Shown piece by piece: positions 186 to 29,975 of a DNA stretch of 58,926 nucleotides. Origin of the DNA: Candidatus Aenigmatarchaeota archaeon. Its GTDB lineage: Archaea > Aenigmatarchaeota > Aenigmatarchaeia > CG10238-14 > SCSR01. A model generated the notes under the pieces. That model had not been told where the DNA came from. It saw only the letters and a list, made by a program, of their open reading frames with translations, and did not search any database. The stretch's first letter is position 1. Each line of letters starts with the position of its first letter. Location: positions 1-58,926 of the forward strand of contig JAGVVV010000006.1 in assembly GCA_018304615.1 (NCBI GenBank). Reading direction: 5' to 3'. The position numbers and the translations under genes are program-made.

Positions 186-225
186 TGCGGGAGGTGTGCT
201 CTCTGGCTGGACTACAGACCGAGAG
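186..225 (+). repeat. box A repeat copy with hairpin
   Basis: The 11-base box TGCGGGAGGTG (186-196), extended to TGCGGGAGGTGTGCT exactly as in the copy at 17081, is followed by an imperfect hairpin (arms about 199-206 and 219-225, one bulged T). It is an outlying copy of the family clustered at 17000-20212 and lies about 50 bases before the gene at 278. I see nothing else in the AT-rich stretch 1-277 except an A+T-rich region that may hold a promoter. Confidence 0.6.
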
Positions 226-15432: not shown

Positions 15433-15483
15433 GAAATTAAAAATTGTTTAAAAATTCAAACTTATAGTTTGAACAAGGGAAAA

Positions 15484-15503
15484 CTGTGGGAATTGAACCC
15501 ATC
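15484..15503 (-). other. tRNA T-arm/3'-end-like fragment (copy 1)
   Basis: On the plus strand CTGTGGGAATTGAACCCATC has the form of a tRNA T-arm read backwards (minus strand: TGGGTTCAATTCCCA), but no D-arm or anticodon arm follows. A similar fragment lies at about 16229-16256 in the same orientation, on the other side of the broken gene 15502-16199. Confidence 0.5.
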
Positions 15504-16228: not shown

Positions 16229-16256
16229 AGTATGCGCGTGTAGGGATTTGAACCCA
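16229..16256 (-). other. tRNA T-arm/3'-end-like fragment (copy 2)
   Basis: GTGTAGGGATTTGAACCCAT resembles the 3' part of a tRNA on the minus strand (GGGTTCAAATCCC core) with no upstream tRNA body. It aligns to the fragment at 15484 as TGT(A)GGGA(A/T)TTGAACCCAT, giving an approximate 20-base direct repeat around the broken membrane gene. Confidence 0.5.
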
Positions 16257-16955: not shown

Positions 16956-16999
16956 ACTGAAGATTCAACATAGAATTTGAATTATTGTGTGCAGTATTG

Positions 17000-17036
17000 T
17001 GCGGGAGGTGAGAACGACGGTTAACCGTAGTGCGTA
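17000..17036 (+). repeat. 37-base repeat, copy 1 (box A plus perfect palindrome)
   Basis: This 37-base segment is identical to 20175-20211. It consists of box A (TGCGGGAGGTG), AGAACG, the perfect 12-base palindrome ACGGTTAACCGT and AGTGCGTA. Box A is identical to the 3' terminus of the tRNA-Leu gene as read on the plus strand at 21865-21875. With copy 2 it brackets the genes at 17225, 17891 and 18805. Confidence 0.85.
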
Positions 17037-17063
17037 GTGACTGCTCCAACATTTGGCTGTTTG

Positions 17064-17149
17064 TTTACAGCTGTAAATAATGCGGGAGGTGTGCTACTCT
17101 ATAAAAAGAGAAGCGGATATACTGCTTCGTTTTTCATAGCGATGCGGAC
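17064..17149 (+). repeat. palindrome - box A - hairpin - box B unit
   Basis: The 14-base perfect palindrome TTTACAGCTGTAAA (17064-17077) precedes box A (17081-17091). Then come a hairpin GAAGC/GCTTC (about 17110-17128) and box B TGCGGAC (17143-17149), 62 bases after box A. The same order and nearly the same spacing recur at 17767-17837. The downstream sequence (TTTGTGTTTCGGCTG) resembles that after the later box B. I see no open frame in 16956-17224. Confidence 0.75.
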
Positions 17150-17224
17150 TTTGTGTTTCGGCTGAAAAATAATATAGTAAATGGACATTGGAAAGTAGTT
17201 AAATGCGGAAAATCTTAAAAAATT

Positions 17225-17713
17225 TCATTGTTGGTATATTTCTTGATACATTTCTGCTTTCTTTTCTAACCTTGATACATTTTCTTTAGTAAGAGTTCCT
17301 TTACCAAACACTGATTCCCAGCGGGTTTTATGAGTGTCAGGATTCCTATTCATCAAATAGCCTGCCGTACCGCCATATACAAAAACAGGAGCGCCGATAA
17401 TTTCAAAGAACAAAAGCCCTAATTTAGAATTACCAGTTATTACATCATAAATCAAACCAATTGCAAGAGGAATACCAACTGCCATCATTGCAAGGGCTTG
17501 TTTTCTCTTACTCTTCTTACTGAAGTAAAGTTGACCATCTTCTACAAGACTTTTCGCAAAAGTATACCTTGAATTGTTTATAGCTTGCATTTTCTGTGTT
17601 TGAAATATTCTTTCTTTTTCGATTGAAGACAAAACTGATGGTCTTTCTTCATCCAATTCCGACACTAATTGTTCGTATGACAAGATATGCTGTTGCATAA
17701 TTTCACTAATCAT
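17225..17713 (-). CDS. hypothetical two-helix membrane protein (cassette gene)
   Basis: The N-terminal 75 residues are charged and helical (coiled-coil-like: LDEERPSVLSSIEKERIFQ), followed by two membrane helices (about 75-90 and 100-120) and a charged C-terminal helix (VSRLEKKAEMYQEIYQQ). I recognise no family. It is AT-richer than the core genes and lies alone between two repeat units. Confidence 0.6.
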   Translation of the reverse strand: MISEIMQQHILSYEQLVSELDEERPSVLSSIEKERIFQTQKMQAINNSRYTFAKSLVEDGQLYFSKKSKRKQALAMMAVGIPLAIGLIYDVITGNSKLGLLFFEIIGAPVFVYGGTAGYLMNRNPDTHKTRWESVFGKGTLTKENVSRLEKKAEMYQEIYQQ

Positions 17714-17766
17714 AATTAAGCACCTAAAAGTATTTTACATTATTACCGCATCGTTTTCCGTAGAGA

Positions 17767-17837
17767 TGCGGGAGGTGTGTCTTCTCACGGTATTCCAGTG
17801 CGGACTTCACGCACATACATACCGTGGTGATGCGGAC
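17767..17837 (+). repeat. box A - hairpin - box B unit
   Basis: Box A (17767-17777) is followed by a hairpin with arms CACGGTAT (17786-17793) and ATACCGTG (17819-17826). An inner TGCGGAC (17799-17805) sits in the hairpin loop, and the terminal box B TGCGGAC (17831-17837) follows 64 bases after box A. Just upstream, CGCATC and GATGCG form another inverted pair. Confidence 0.75.
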
Positions 17838-17841
17838 TTTT

Positions 17842-17934
17842 TGTTTACAACTGTAAATAATGCGGGAGGTGGGCATTAGACTTTAGTCATATGCTTTGCT
17901 TTTTGACAGCATTTAACCAAAGTCATATGCGGAA
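17842..17934 (+). repeat. palindrome - box A - box B-like unit
   Basis: TTTACAACTGTAAA (about 17842-17855), the near-palindrome seen at 17064, precedes box A extended to TGCGGGAGGTGGG (17861-17873), the copy closest to the tRNA-Leu 3' end. The 10-mer AGTCATATGC then occurs twice (about 17885 and 17921), the second running into TGCGGAA (17928-17934). The downstream part overlaps the start region of the gene at 17891/17927. Confidence 0.65.
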
Positions 17935-18790
17935 CACCAGGGACAGAAACACTTTAATCTTTATCAGCCATTTGTTATTTCATGGAAACAAAATACCACT
18001 ATTTAGAGGAACTAGCACACGACAAGAAATCGAAGATCTAAAAAGATATTTAATAGAACATTTTGATATGAACACTGCACAAACAAAAGGTTTTTATAGA
18101 CTGTCTGAAATTTCTAAGTCATCCTTATATCCTATGGTAGAGGCAACAAATGTTCAGTTAACACTCGGTGTTCCTTTACAGTTTATAGCTTATGCAATCT
18201 CTTATCCTGGCAAGCGAACTATAGGATTGGAGACATTTAATGATTTTGATATGGCTGGTGATCATCCTTTTAGTTTTGACTTTATAGATTATTGTCGAGT
18301 AAGAGATAGGACTGAGACTTTAAAGCTTGGAGGATCAGATTGGTTTAATGGTGACAATAAATCTAATTCTGAATTTTATGCTAAAGTTATAGCACCTTTA
18401 CTTCATTCGACATTACAATCTGTTCTACCACCAGATCTTATAAAAGAAGAAAGTTTAGCTCATGAATTACAACATCAAAGAGATTTTGACGAAATAGTTT
18501 CAAGATTTCCGTACCCTTTAAATGAAATTGTTTATGTTTATTTGTTTCAGGAAACTGAAATTGGCGAAGATAGAGCTGTAGAATTTGGGAGTCATATAAA
18601 GAAAAAAGATTATTCTTCATTACAAACATTAAAAGAAAAATATGAAAAAGACGAGCTTCTTGAATATTTTAAAGGTGCATTAAGAAAGCATAGATTAAAA
18701 ATTTTCAAGAGATGGGGTATTAGACTTTTCCTTCGTATGACTGGTGACAGATTTCAGTATTTGCATGATTTACTGCAAGCCTATTTCTAA
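17891..18790 (+). CDS. putative HELQH zinc metalloprotease-like protein (cassette gene)
   Basis: The 299-residue product contains SLAHELQHQRDFDE, an HExxH zinc-site motif, and about 40 residues later TEIGEDRAVEFG, where a glutamate could be the third ligand. The rest is unrecognised; no membrane helix is clear. ATG at 17927 (MRNTRDRN) may be the true start, since the first 12 codons overlap a repeat. It is AT-rich compared with core genes. Proteolysis is inferred from the motif only. Confidence 0.6.
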   Translation: MLCFLTAFNQSHMRNTRDRNTLIFISHLLFHGNKIPLFRGTSTRQEIEDLKRYLIEHFDMNTAQTKGFYRLSEISKSSLYPMVEATNVQLTLGVPLQFIAYAISYPGKRTIGLETFNDFDMAGDHPFSFDFIDYCRVRDRTETLKLGGSDWFNGDNKSNSEFYAKVIAPLLHSTLQSVLPPDLIKEESLAHELQHQRDFDEIVSRFPYPLNEIVYVYLFQETEIGEDRAVEFGSHIKKKDYSSLQTLKEKYEKDELLEYFKGALRKHRLKIFKRWGIRLFLRMTGDRFQYLHDLLQAYF

Positions 18791-18804
18791 CATTTTTGAT
18801 TATT

Positions 18805-20028
18805 TTAGAAAAATAATAAGCTATCAACTAATTCATAAAGAGCATCTTTTTCTCTTACAGATTCAGGAACTTTTACTTGTCTTATTGTAGACCAAGGAAC
18901 TAGACTATTTCCACTTTTCAACATAATTATTTCATCGCTTTTCTTTCCTCTTACTAATTCTTCGTCCCATCCTTCTCTAACATCAGGCTTTCCTTTTAAC
19001 CATTTTATATCTGAATATCCTTCTCGTTCCAAATCTTCAGGAACCATGACAAATCCGTAATCTATTGTCACATGCCTTGGGTTACCAACTCTGAGAGCAG
19101 TTTCAGTTGCAAGTCGTATGAACTTATTTCTGTATGTTTGAATAGCTTCTGAATCTGCAGAAGGTCCTTCAGGAGCATATTTATTGTAATGGCTAAATTC
19201 ATTTGTAAAAATTCCAGCCGAATAAGAATGTCCATAATATGCTGATTGCAAATTTCCATCTTTGTCAATAAATGGAAAGTGATGACCATTAGGATTATGT
19301 TCAGATTTATCTACCCAAACTCTTCCTCGTCCATTAGGAAGTTGCGGACCATAAAATCTGGCCCATTGTCTTAAATCCATATCCCAATAAGCAACTATTT
19401 GGCCAATTTCATTTTGCTCTAATGGTTTGTCCGCATCCTTATATTCACCTTCATAATTCCAATCACCAACAGCACATGCACCTACATGTCTCACTGGTTT
19501 TGATCTTGTTATTCCTAATGTTCGCATAATAAGTTCGTCAGACACATCAATTTCCTCTATATCACCTGAACGAATATTACAAGTCTGCAACAATAATGAA
19601 AGCAATTCCTGCTTTGAAAGGCCAATGAGAAAATGTTTAGATCTTTCATAATCAAACGGTTCTCTTTGAGGTGGTATGAATTTATCGCTATTTTTCTCTC
19701 TGAAGTAGTTTGCCGTTCTAACAATCTCATCTCTAGACAAATTTCTTACAACATAAGAAGTTGAAGGTTTAGGATAACCCAAATAAAATCGATTTTCCAA
19801 CCAACATGACCAAAGCCCAACCAAACCATCTAAAGTACCATCGTGAATAGATAATTCCCAACCAGATTTATGATACATTGGCATTCTTCTTTCTGAACCT
19901 TGTGCTTGTAGTTCTGCTTGGCTAAGAGTTGCATTTGCAGCTACCATTAACATGGCTCTCATTGGATCGTACTGTGCTGTCTTTTCTATTATTTTTCCAG
20001 GAGTTTGTTTGTACATTTCTTTTGTCAT
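18805..20028 (-). CDS. unrecognised 407-aa protein (cassette gene)
   Basis: A soluble-looking protein rich in tryptophan and aromatic residues, with segments WELSIHDGTLDGLVGLWSCW, HVGACAVGDWNYEGEY and YYGHSYSAGIFTNEFSHYNK. I recognise no fold or catalytic signature. It is convergent with the HELQH gene (14-base gap) and ends the segment enclosed by the 37-base repeats. The AT-rich base use matches the neighbouring cassette genes. Confidence 0.6.
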   Translation of the reverse strand: MTKEMYKQTPGKIIEKTAQYDPMRAMLMVAANATLSQAELQAQGSERRMPMYHKSGWELSIHDGTLDGLVGLWSCWLENRFYLGYPKPSTSYVVRNLSRDEIVRTANYFREKNSDKFIPPQREPFDYERSKHFLIGLSKQELLSLLLQTCNIRSGDIEEIDVSDELIMRTLGITRSKPVRHVGACAVGDWNYEGEYKDADKPLEQNEIGQIVAYWDMDLRQWARFYGPQLPNGRGRVWVDKSEHNPNGHHFPFIDKDGNLQSAYYGHSYSAGIFTNEFSHYNKYAPEGPSADSEAIQTYRNKFIRLATETALRVGNPRHVTIDYGFVMVPEDLEREGYSDIKWLKGKPDVREGWDEELVRGKKSDEIIMLKSGNSLVPWSTIRQVKVPESVREKDALYELVDSLLFF

Positions 20029-20174
20029 ATATTCACTAACAGAAAAACACGATAGTTAAAGATTTAAGCTTTGTTTGAGCCGATTTTGGAGAGCATGCTG
20101 CAAGTGATATTGGACGCTTCATAAAAACTAATTTCGATTGAATTGAATCAAAACCTATTGAATTAAATCAATTA

Positions 20175-20211
20175 TGCGGGAGGTGAGAACGACGGTTAAC
20201 CGTAGTGCGTA
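20175..20211 (+). repeat. 37-base repeat, copy 2
   Basis: Identical to 17000-17036: box A, perfect palindrome ACGGTTAACCGT, AGTGCGTA. It is followed by TTTACAGTTGTAAA (about 20216-20229), a variant of the 14-base palindrome at 17064. It lies between the minus-strand gene ending near 20028 and the plus-strand gene starting at 20319. Confidence 0.85.
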
Positions 20212-20318
20212 TTTCTTTACAGTTGTAAACAATATGTTCCCAAAAACTCTTAAGGTTGTGCTCTGTCAGAAATCAATCCATAGTACAAGATTTAAAGCTT
20301 CTTATTCATTGTATTTTT

Positions 20319-21788
20319 ATGATTTTTGAAGCTGTCGAAAAAGTCAATGAAAAATTACAGAGATTCGTTCCAGATTTATATACGGATATCGATGCTTCAT
20401 ATTTCCTTAAGAAAACAAAGGACAAGGAATTTCTTTTTGGTTCCAGCGAACTGGATGTAAAAAAATTGGAAGACAGGGCGAAGATATACGGAATTTCTCC
20501 AAAAGTCCTTGAAGATATTAGAGGTATAGCTGAGAAATCCGGACATTTCAAGTATTGGCCATTCATTCTAGGGACATATTATGTCGATGGAAAGAGAATG
20601 TCAATGAACGACATAAACGCGACAGATCTCATATTCATTGCTTCACAATTGGGTGCGCCCAATATAATTTTTTATGCGTTAAATTTACCTCCTCTCTCAC
20701 CACAGTGGTACTTATCCGGTGTCTTGCCACTCAGAGCAATGTATTTTGCCGCGAGGAGAGGATGGTGGAGGCATGAATCAACACATGCCAGACATCATCA
20801 TTCCATGGCTGAGTATATGGCAATCATGAAAGAGCAAAAAAATCTCAAACATGCAATATCAAAAAATCCTAGATTTTTTACTCAGTCGAGATCAAATACA
20901 AGATTGGAAGATCAACTGAGTGCAATGCAGTCCAGTTATTACAGGGAAAGTTTGTCAGATGCAGGACTCACAATACATGAGGCCGGTAGCGAGGAGCTTC
21001 TGACGAGATGGCAGAGCCTTAAGGAAGCAAGAGGTCCTAGAGAGAAAGCATTGGCAACTTTTGCACTTGGCTTGTATTTCGAATATGCTCCTTTCAAGGG
21101 GTTGCAGAACTTGCTCATAGATTTCAAGGACAAGGTGGATGAAAAGTTTCCACATGATCCTCGCTTAAGGAGGGCGGTAAAAGTAGGATCCGTTGCCTCG
21201 ATGCTCGCTTTGCCTTTTTACGGACTTGTTACATATGCTCCCGCAGCAGCCCAGCAATTGCATGACATTCTCGTTCAAGAATACAAGTATGCAGACATAG
21301 ATCCTGAGAGAATAGACAGCGCACTTTGGCGAGGCTTTGCATATTATTTCGTCACAGTTCTGGCAGCGTTTTTCAGTTCGCATAGAAAAGGTATTTTGGG
21401 ACAAAAGAAGCAGAAGGTATTAGAAAAGACTGGAAAGCATTTGAGGACCCGCGAGTACAAATTCCCATACACATACAATCCTGCGAAGTCATTTTACAGG
21501 CATGTAAAGACAGCGCTTTACCTAAACAAAGTCTGGGGCAATATCCCAAATTACAGACAGCTTCAATCGAGCAGCGATGTAGATGGTGTCATCTCGGAAG
21601 TCGATGCAAGACTGCGTGGAAAGATGGGCGACAATGACAGAACATTTACAATAAATACATTGGGAGACTCTTTACAACCATATACAAGAGCTCATGAATA
21701 TCAATTTCCAGTCGACATTTATCCAAAGGAACTTTTCCTTGCAAATGTTTATCTCAACTTGAAAGATTTGTTTGAAAAGATGCAATGA
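20319..21788 (+). CDS. membrane protein with HESTH motif
   Basis: About 490 residues. A segment AMYFAARRGWWRHESTHARHHH holds an HExxH-type motif followed by extra histidines, just after a hydrophobic stretch. Two or three further hydrophobic segments lie near the middle (SMLALPFYGLVTYAPAAAQQ and FAYYFVTVLAAFF). The frame extends to GTG 20256, but ATG 20319 (MIFEAVEKV) is the better start. I recognise no family; a membrane metalloprotease is one possibility. It is the last gene before tRNA-Leu and less AT-rich than the genes to its left. Confidence 0.6.
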   Translation: MIFEAVEKVNEKLQRFVPDLYTDIDASYFLKKTKDKEFLFGSSELDVKKLEDRAKIYGISPKVLEDIRGIAEKSGHFKYWPFILGTYYVDGKRMSMNDINATDLIFIASQLGAPNIIFYALNLPPLSPQWYLSGVLPLRAMYFAARRGWWRHESTHARHHHSMAEYMAIMKEQKNLKHAISKNPRFFTQSRSNTRLEDQLSAMQSSYYRESLSDAGLTIHEAGSEELLTRWQSLKEARGPREKALATFALGLYFEYAPFKGLQNLLIDFKDKVDEKFPHDPRLRRAVKVGSVASMLALPFYGLVTYAPAAAQQLHDILVQEYKYADIDPERIDSALWRGFAYYFVTVLAAFFSSHRKGILGQKKQKVLEKTGKHLRTREYKFPYTYNPAKSFYRHVKTALYLNKVWGNIPNYRQLQSSSDVDGVISEVDARLRGKMGDNDRTFTINTLGDSLQPYTRAHEYQFPVDIYPKELFLANVYLNLKDLFEKMQ

Positions 21789-21864
21789 ACGTTAGAACAA
21801 TATTTCAATTCTATCAATGGCTGTGAAATTATTTATCGAACCTACGAACTACGAGAAACCGTTG

Positions 21865-21950
21865 TGCGGGAGGTGGGATTTGAACCCACGTATGCACTAA
21901 GCAACTGGCACCTCAAGCCAGCGGAATTGACCAGGCTATCCGACCCCCGC
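21865..21950 (-). tRNA. tRNA-Leu(GAG)
   Basis: A complete class II tRNA on the minus strand: acceptor GCGGGGG/CTCCCGC with discriminator A, anticodon stem CTGGC/GCCAG around loop TTGAGGT (anticodon GAG), long variable arm, T-arm GTGGG/CCCAC. CCA is not encoded. Its last 11 bases (on the plus strand TGCGGGAGGTG) are repeated six times elsewhere in this window, five of them in the 5 kb just beyond its 3' end. Confidence 0.95.
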
Positions 21951-29754: not shown

Positions 29755-29909
29755 TGCTCCCACCGGGATTTGAACCCGAGTTTGCTGCTTTCGTCTCAGC
29801 CTGTCTTCGTCTGCTTTCATCTTTGCATCAAACCTTTCTGAGCAAAACTCGAAAGGGCCTTAGACGGTCTTAATGACCTGTATCCTTGACCGGACTAGAC
29901 GATGGGAGC
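29755..29909 (-). tRNA. tRNA-Glu-like gene with long insertion(s)
   Basis: On the minus strand the acceptor arms (GCTCCCA/TGGGAGC, discriminator A), a D-arm (GTCTAGTCCGG...GGAT) and the T-arm (TCGGG TTCAAAT CCCGG) are good and resemble archaeal tRNA-Glu. About 80 bases too many lie between the D- and T-arms, so one or two introns are present. A CCTTTCGAG in the middle would supply a TTC anticodon, but I could not fix the splice sites. Confidence 0.7.
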
Positions 29910-29975
29910 TTGAAACAATTCATTCTCATCTCTTTATTTAAATCTAACTTAGAATTCGTTCCATTTAATAATGAG

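Follow-up and report, generated by a model that had tools for sequence, protein, structure and literature searches.

Analysis of a 58,926-nucleotide stretch of DNA from a Candidatus Aenigmatarchaeota archaeon (contig JAGVVV010000006.1; hereafter the window) indicated that a tyrosine recombinase supplied in trans probably inserted small, integrase-less cassettes at the 3' ends of tRNA genes. Judged from sequence, this reading was given a probability of about 0.7. Its observed basis is the cores, their arms, the spacing and orientation of both, the gene content of the units and their absence from relatives. The window is contig C17 of the genome G000 (785 kb, 22 contigs, 89% complete), whose small size and intron-rich tRNAs would be consistent with a DPANN lineage.

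The 11-base sequence TGCGGGAGGTG was present in seven copies in the window, against a mean of 0.01 in shuffled sequences (largest shuffle, 1). The five plus-strand copies described in the first-pass annotation were confirmed and form an array of five, each copy being the core of one of the units A to E (Table 1). To these were added the true 3' end of tRNA-Leu(GAG) and a seventh copy near the start of the window, which had been overlooked.

Table 1. Coordinates of the array at tRNA-Leu(GAG) and of associated features in the window; each unit starts at the first base of its core.
Feature	Position	Strand	Description
Solitary core	186..196	+	TGCGGGAGGTG(TGC); followed by ORF 278-610 (110 aa); second boundary not recognised
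tRNA 3' fragment	16233..16256	+	TGCGCGTGTAGGGATTTGAACCCA; ends after the T arm; just left of the array
Unit A (81 bases, gene-less)	17000..17080	+	Core, 41-base block, CTGCTCCAACATTTGGCTG arm, palindrome 17064-17077
Unit B	17081..17766	+	Core, hairpin, decayed TGCGGACTTT...AATAA end, ORF 17225-17713 (-)
Unit C (94 bases, gene-less)	17767..17860	+	Core, hairpin, TGCGGACTTT, palindrome 17844-17857
Unit D	17861..20174	+	Core TGCGGGAGGTGGGCA (TGC-N9-GCA), ORF 17891-18790, ORF 18805-20028 (-)
Unit E	20175..21863	+	Core, 41-base block shared with unit A, palindrome 20216-20229, ORF 20256-21788
tRNA-Leu(GAG), array anchor	21864..21950	-	Terminal 11 bases 21865-21875, TGCGGGAGGTG on the plus strand, equal to the core
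Intron-containing tRNA, probably tRNA-Glu	29755..29940	-	3' end TGCTCCCACCGGG; 5' end placed by eye

The 41-base block of units A and E (16996-17036 and 20171-20211) was 98% identical; neither this block nor the palindrome at 17064, 17844 and 20216 had been noticed in the first pass. Unit C adjoins the next core directly after TAA. Box B (TGCGGAC or TGCGGAA) was located, as described earlier, 62, 64 and 67 bases past the copies at 17081, 17767 and 17861 (at 17143, 17831 and 17928). A hairpin had been reported after each copy; the fold z-scores of the five units were -0.23, -2.28, -1.85, -1.31 and -0.14, and the structures differed between units, so the description was only partly right, with notable scores in two units. 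Two tRNA fragments that comprise T arm and 3' end but have no 5' half were seen immediately left of the array, at 15478-15502 and 16233-16256; both are possibly scars of tRNA-targeting insertions at other tRNAs.

The units carry 0-2 genes, are 0.1-2.3 kb long and have no integrase of their own. The ORF of unit B encodes 162 aa, those of unit D 299 aa and 407 aa, and that of unit E 510 aa with no family found. None of these four cassette proteins had a Pfam match above the cut-off, in agreement with their earlier description as unrecognised, and most cassette proteins could not be named convincingly from libraries of defence, phage and NCBI families. An HExxH zinc-protease-like motif was seen in two unrelated proteins, as HELQH in the 299 aa protein and as HESTH in the 510 aa protein. 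Cargo elsewhere in the genome included a GNAT acetyltransferase and a DsbB-like protein, as well as a small protein that by eye is winged-helix-like; other cargo ORFs had no relatives. The core at the end of contig C20 has beside it an ORF that by eye resembles a thermonuclease. Several cassettes had 31.8-35.7% GC, compared with 37.5-43.2% in host DNA. The genes between the repeats had been called AT-rich, which applied to two of the gene-bearing window units (34.8 and 34.0% GC) and not to the third, unit E (40.2%; window, 39.4%).

Genome-wide, TGCGGGAGGTG occurred 13 times and its reversed control pattern 0 times; two of the 13 copies are the ends of real tRNA genes (C17:21865 and C11:15946). 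The tRNA with the TGCGGGAGGTG end at C11:15300-15957 (L016:5300-5957) contains an intron and has no array, and the ORF upstream of it resembles, by eye, a LAGLIDADG homing endonuclease. A second tRNA end, that of tRNA-Glu (TGCTCCCACCG), was multiplied likewise at at least four other places. This second core, TGCTCCCACCG or TGCTCCCAACG, was accompanied by the palindrome and the second arm on C8, C9, C12 and C20, and it is the 3' end of glutamate-type tRNA genes at window position 29755 and at C8:38132, whose amino acid was read by eye from the anticodon loop and is tentative. In 237 kb of the genome, only these two tRNA-end families were clearly multiplied (13 and 9 copies). In the control, with spurious non-tRNA matches set aside, every tRNA 3' end counted had at most two copies in 354 kb of genome G013 and 323 kb of genome G003; G003 had 13 tyrosine-recombinase matches, yet no multiplied tRNA end. 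A third candidate core, TGGACCCGAAG (C8:47291 beside an arm; tRNA at C8:50244), was discarded, since the sequence at C8:47291 may be coding.

One array on C12 contains both a Leu-type and a Glu-type core, 95 bases from each other, and therefore both families belong to one system. Each locus of either family had a single core orientation. The end of contig C20 coincides exactly with the outer base of a core. An assembly would break off in this way if the population differed in the neighbouring sequence; this is suggestive only, and the end may instead be an unrelated break.

The palindrome TTTACARYTGTAAA was found at 14 places in the genome, clustered on C8, C12, C17 and C20. Both core families had the same arms: immediately outside the core lies TTTACARYTGTAAA, and some 46 bp to the inside lie CATTTAGGGGATTTT and a second palindrome (for example, C8:37635-38131, C20:4455-4973 and the C12:9532-9686 junction). 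The complete junction has the order palindrome, 3-7 bases, core, about 32 bases, arm, palindrome, as at C20:4437-4501 and C12:9606-9686, and also at C8:45304-45404 with a wider spacing (28 bases, not 3-7). Of the 24 palindromes, 15 lay within 100 bp of a plus-strand core (about 0.4 expected) and none near a minus-strand core, which refuted a random spread of the copies.

Palindromes of the form TACA-NN-TGTA are typical of winged-helix repressor operators. This form fits the proposal that the repeats are regulatory or RNA elements, in which the palindrome would be an operator and the core would resemble a tRNA end by chance or for a function. The Rfam scan gave tRNAs and no other match, and the proposal leaves unexplained the exact identity to two tRNA ends, the fixed orientation relative to the tRNA and the lineage-specific genes between copies; we regard it as very improbable.

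The pattern TGC-N9-GCA was present in at least 10 of the 24 non-tRNA cores, and three had ACA in place of GCA (in the core alignment, two C8 rows are shifted by one base; correctly aligned, both read GCA). The tRNA genes themselves have TGC-N9-GAT, in which N9 is the acceptor stem. The core appears to read as an inverted pair around the acceptor stem and looks like a tyrosine-recombinase site. At the short end of archaeal integrase sites, the att identity is 8-13 bp (PMC8371274), and the 11-bp core identity and inverted-arm layout are inside the recorded range. Several Glu-type cores had an inverted GGAGCA about 35-42 bases further on, as a third half-site (L100:5493-5533, L100:8559-8610 and L054:13601-13650). 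Inside the hairpin of unit C, TGCGGACTTCACGCA (17799-17813) matches TGC-N9-GCA as well, with a different overlap sequence; none of the genome stretches examined contained a tRNA ending in TGCGGACTTCACGCA.

From these features we infer recombination, a circular form and a trans-acting enzyme. Each unit would be a small non-autonomous integrative cassette, and the recombination core would be an inverted-arm site with the consensus TGC-N9-GCA, the central bases of which copy the end of the tRNA acceptor stem (GGGAGGTG for tRNA-Leu(GAG), TCCCACCG for tRNA-Glu). The circular cassette would carry its core between the palindrome TTTACARYTGTAAA and the CATTTAGGGGATTTT-palindrome arm, and a tyrosine recombinase in trans would join it to the core at the tRNA 3' end. 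Integration would restore the tRNA and leave a copy of the core on the far side; therefore, repeated rounds would stack cassettes in one orientation beside the tRNA.

The first-pass annotation had rightly seen no integrase in the window, and no unit in the genome contained an integrase gene. The whole-genome search for a tyrosine recombinase revealed a single one (PF00589 match at C11:5688), far from any unit. It passed the archaeal XerA model NF040815 (244 bits; cut-off, 220) and failed the integron integrase model TIGR02249 (224.6 bits; cut-off, 265), and its closest solved structure was Pyrococcus XerA. Several relatives, including G010 (96% complete), had no PF00589 match. XerA sites are 11-6-11 inverted repeats (PMC2958812), to which the cassette cores had no obvious match. 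That the host XerA, the only tyrosine recombinase found in the 89%-complete genome, acts on the cassettes is a guess, to which we give a minority chance; a helper encoded on missing sequence, a virus or a plasmid is at least as likely.

Integron sites have the consensus GTTRRRY, and the core is a tRNA acceptor end instead. This difference bears on the explanation that the array is a true integron or a cluster of attC sites (CALIN), which would account for small genes between repeated sites in one orientation and has a precedent in the integrons and CALINs of archaeal MAGs of nine phyla (PMC9668308). The 224.6 bits of the recombinase on the integron integrase model also point that way, but the score is below the curated cut-off, the XerA model was passed, the best solved relative is a XerA and the folds were inconsistent between units. 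Integron identity was rejected (no IntI in the 89%-complete genome, the best model score being below the cut-off, and no consistent attC-like fold among the units of the window), and we consider this explanation very unlikely. The resemblance of box-hairpin-box to attC, suggested earlier, was likewise not upheld: the sites are short and inverted-arm, as in tyrosine integrases, and the box-hairpin-box arrangement was inconsistent between units.

The layout of the cassettes nevertheless resembles that of a bacterial integron, built from different parts. Like the cassette array, integrons and CALINs, archaeal ones included, are arrays in which small units, most with a single gene, all face the same way with respect to an anchor, and toxin-antitoxin, acetyltransferase and unknown genes occur as cargo in both (PMC9668308). 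Unlike integrons, the cassettes have inverted-arm tRNA-acceptor cores and not folded attC sites, their anchor is a tRNA gene and not attI, and their gene orientation varies.

Comparison with relatives showed that the units are not conserved. Among 56 relatives, most had zero copies of TGCGGGAGGTG and none had more than three. In four relatives, tRNA-Leu(GAG) had a single core and no array genes, and some flanking genes were kept (in G010 the methyltransferase adjoining the tRNA; in G008 the surroundings of tRNA-Ile/tRNA-Ala). In 878 kb of related-genome DNA, relatives were found for 0 of 17 cassette proteins versus 9 of 14 neighbouring genes, and the arm motif, with up to three mismatches, was absent from each of the 155 other phylum genomes. 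By these comparisons, the cassettes are foreign and lineage-specific. With neither a fixed order of units in relatives nor a random spread of the 11-mer, the first-pass proposal that small units carrying genes were inserted one after another at the tRNA 3' end was supported.

In the genome collection, eight of nine palindrome-core matches were chance, and one archaeal contig also had the arms. This contig, JACRDV010000129.1 (binned euryarchaeon, groundwater), has the same arms and cores, and the search revealed no further such place outside G000. Between its arms and cores lie an antitoxin of the AbrB type and a toxin of the RelE/ParE type; the pair was also present, without arms, in G013 and G003, two relatives of G000 (64-78% identity). 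On G013:C2 (L194:14340-15160), an AbrB/RelE pair is bracketed by two diverged copies (about 39 bases) of a protein-coding gene's 3' end, which looks like the result of a small element integrating at a gene 3' end. The base composition of JACRDV010000129.1 was compatible with either correct or wrong binning; therefore, it is treated as a second occurrence and not yet as transfer between phyla.

In the viral collection, the exact arm patterns gave no match and the looser palindrome-core pattern gave chance matches only. Viral contigs yielded no relative of the 510 aa or the 407 aa protein, plasmids none of the 407 aa protein, and phages none of a 359 aa protein of C12. These searches weigh against a serious rival, namely that the units are captured elements: larger viruses or plasmids would have integrated repeatedly at the same tRNAs and then shed their integrases and the bulk of their genes, so that stray genes now lie between att scars in tandem. 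Archaea are known to show both integration in tandem at a single tRNA and loss of the integrase (PMC8371274, PMC6563490), and the core-less arms in C8:39-49 kb and the tRNA fragments at 16233 and C19:9606 agree with such decay. But units that differ in both gene content and target tRNA share the same arms, the genome search gave no further integrase or remnant, and the 81-95-base units and the one-gene units with both ends intact (C20:4455-4973 and C8:37635-38131) look minimal, unlike random deletions. We judge decay of ordinary tRNA-targeting elements to be unlikely as the origin of the array. Boundaries are missing at 186, from C12:9627 onward and at several arms in C8:39-49 kb, and part of the cassette set has therefore decayed. 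These gaps count against the preferred reading, as do the arm-less AbrB/RelE pairs of G013 and G003, the GC content of unit E and the poor match of the cores to XerA sites. Solitary arm-plus-palindrome copies were seen at C8:39435-48886 (L054:3435-12886) among housekeeping-like genes, including an apparent TATA-binding protein and a ribosomal protein (by eye).

Archaeal tRNA-targeting elements (SSV/pNOB8/pT26-2, short-att thaumarchaeal and halovirus types) have direct repeats equal to the tRNA 3' end, and such repeats, identical to the tRNA 3' end, were present at the cassette boundaries. The cassettes also fit the 8-13 bp att identity and tandem integration recorded for these elements (PMC8371274, PMC6563490). 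However, these elements are of kilobase size and normally have their own integrase, whereas the cassettes are 0.1-2.3 kb, integrase-less and share arms between different tRNA targets. Satellite or hitcher elements (PMC11389934) are similarly non-autonomous and use the integrase of another element in trans; unlike them, the cassettes have single-gene cargo, a stacked array and a putative helper only.

The Xer-mobilised dif modules of Acinetobacter plasmids (PMC6449649) are small and carry one or a few adaptive genes, or a toxin-antitoxin pair, flanked by short sites for a tyrosine recombinase. Like the cassettes, they have no recombinase of their own, with a Xer recombinase in the host and a role for it suspected. 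The modules are mainly on plasmids and have dif-like sites, whereas the cassettes are chromosomal, have tRNA-end sites in one orientation per locus, and their Xer role is only guessed. Compared with 28-bp dif sites (11-6-11), the cassette cores have inverted arms, with spacing and sequence that do not clearly match published dif sites.

Casposons can insert at tRNA 3' ends. They can also stand in tandem (PMC6563490), and they share a fixed target, direct repeats and tandem insertions with the cassettes. Cas1-type insertion (casposon or CRISPR-like) would make the 11-mer a target-site duplication at the tRNA 3' end; however, the Cas1 search gave no match in the 89%-complete genome versus matches in 9 of 14 control genomes. 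The cassettes also have no polymerase, the unit tips differ and have no terminal inverted repeats, and the arms stand in fixed order around the core. Casposon identity was rejected, and Cas1-type insertion is extremely unlikely.

If the preferred reading is correct, the cassette family would show how integrase-less genes stack at tRNA genes. Routes of accessory gene gain in small-genome archaea are poorly known, and a searchable cassette end structure would be a handle on one such route. The cassettes would also be a testable case of a housekeeping Xer, or of an unknown helper, as an archaeal gene-capture machine. A wider proposal, which we hold to be doubtful, is an archaeal cassette platform in which tRNA acceptor stems serve as the exchange sequence and the host XerA stacks single-gene cassettes at several tRNAs, with exchange between unrelated archaea. 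Such a platform would be a functional counterpart of the integron, made from tRNA ends and a housekeeping recombinase.

At L018:4970-5140 (C20), a tRNA gene adjoining a cassette boundary seemed, by eye, to be interrupted by two introns, of which one lies in the T loop.
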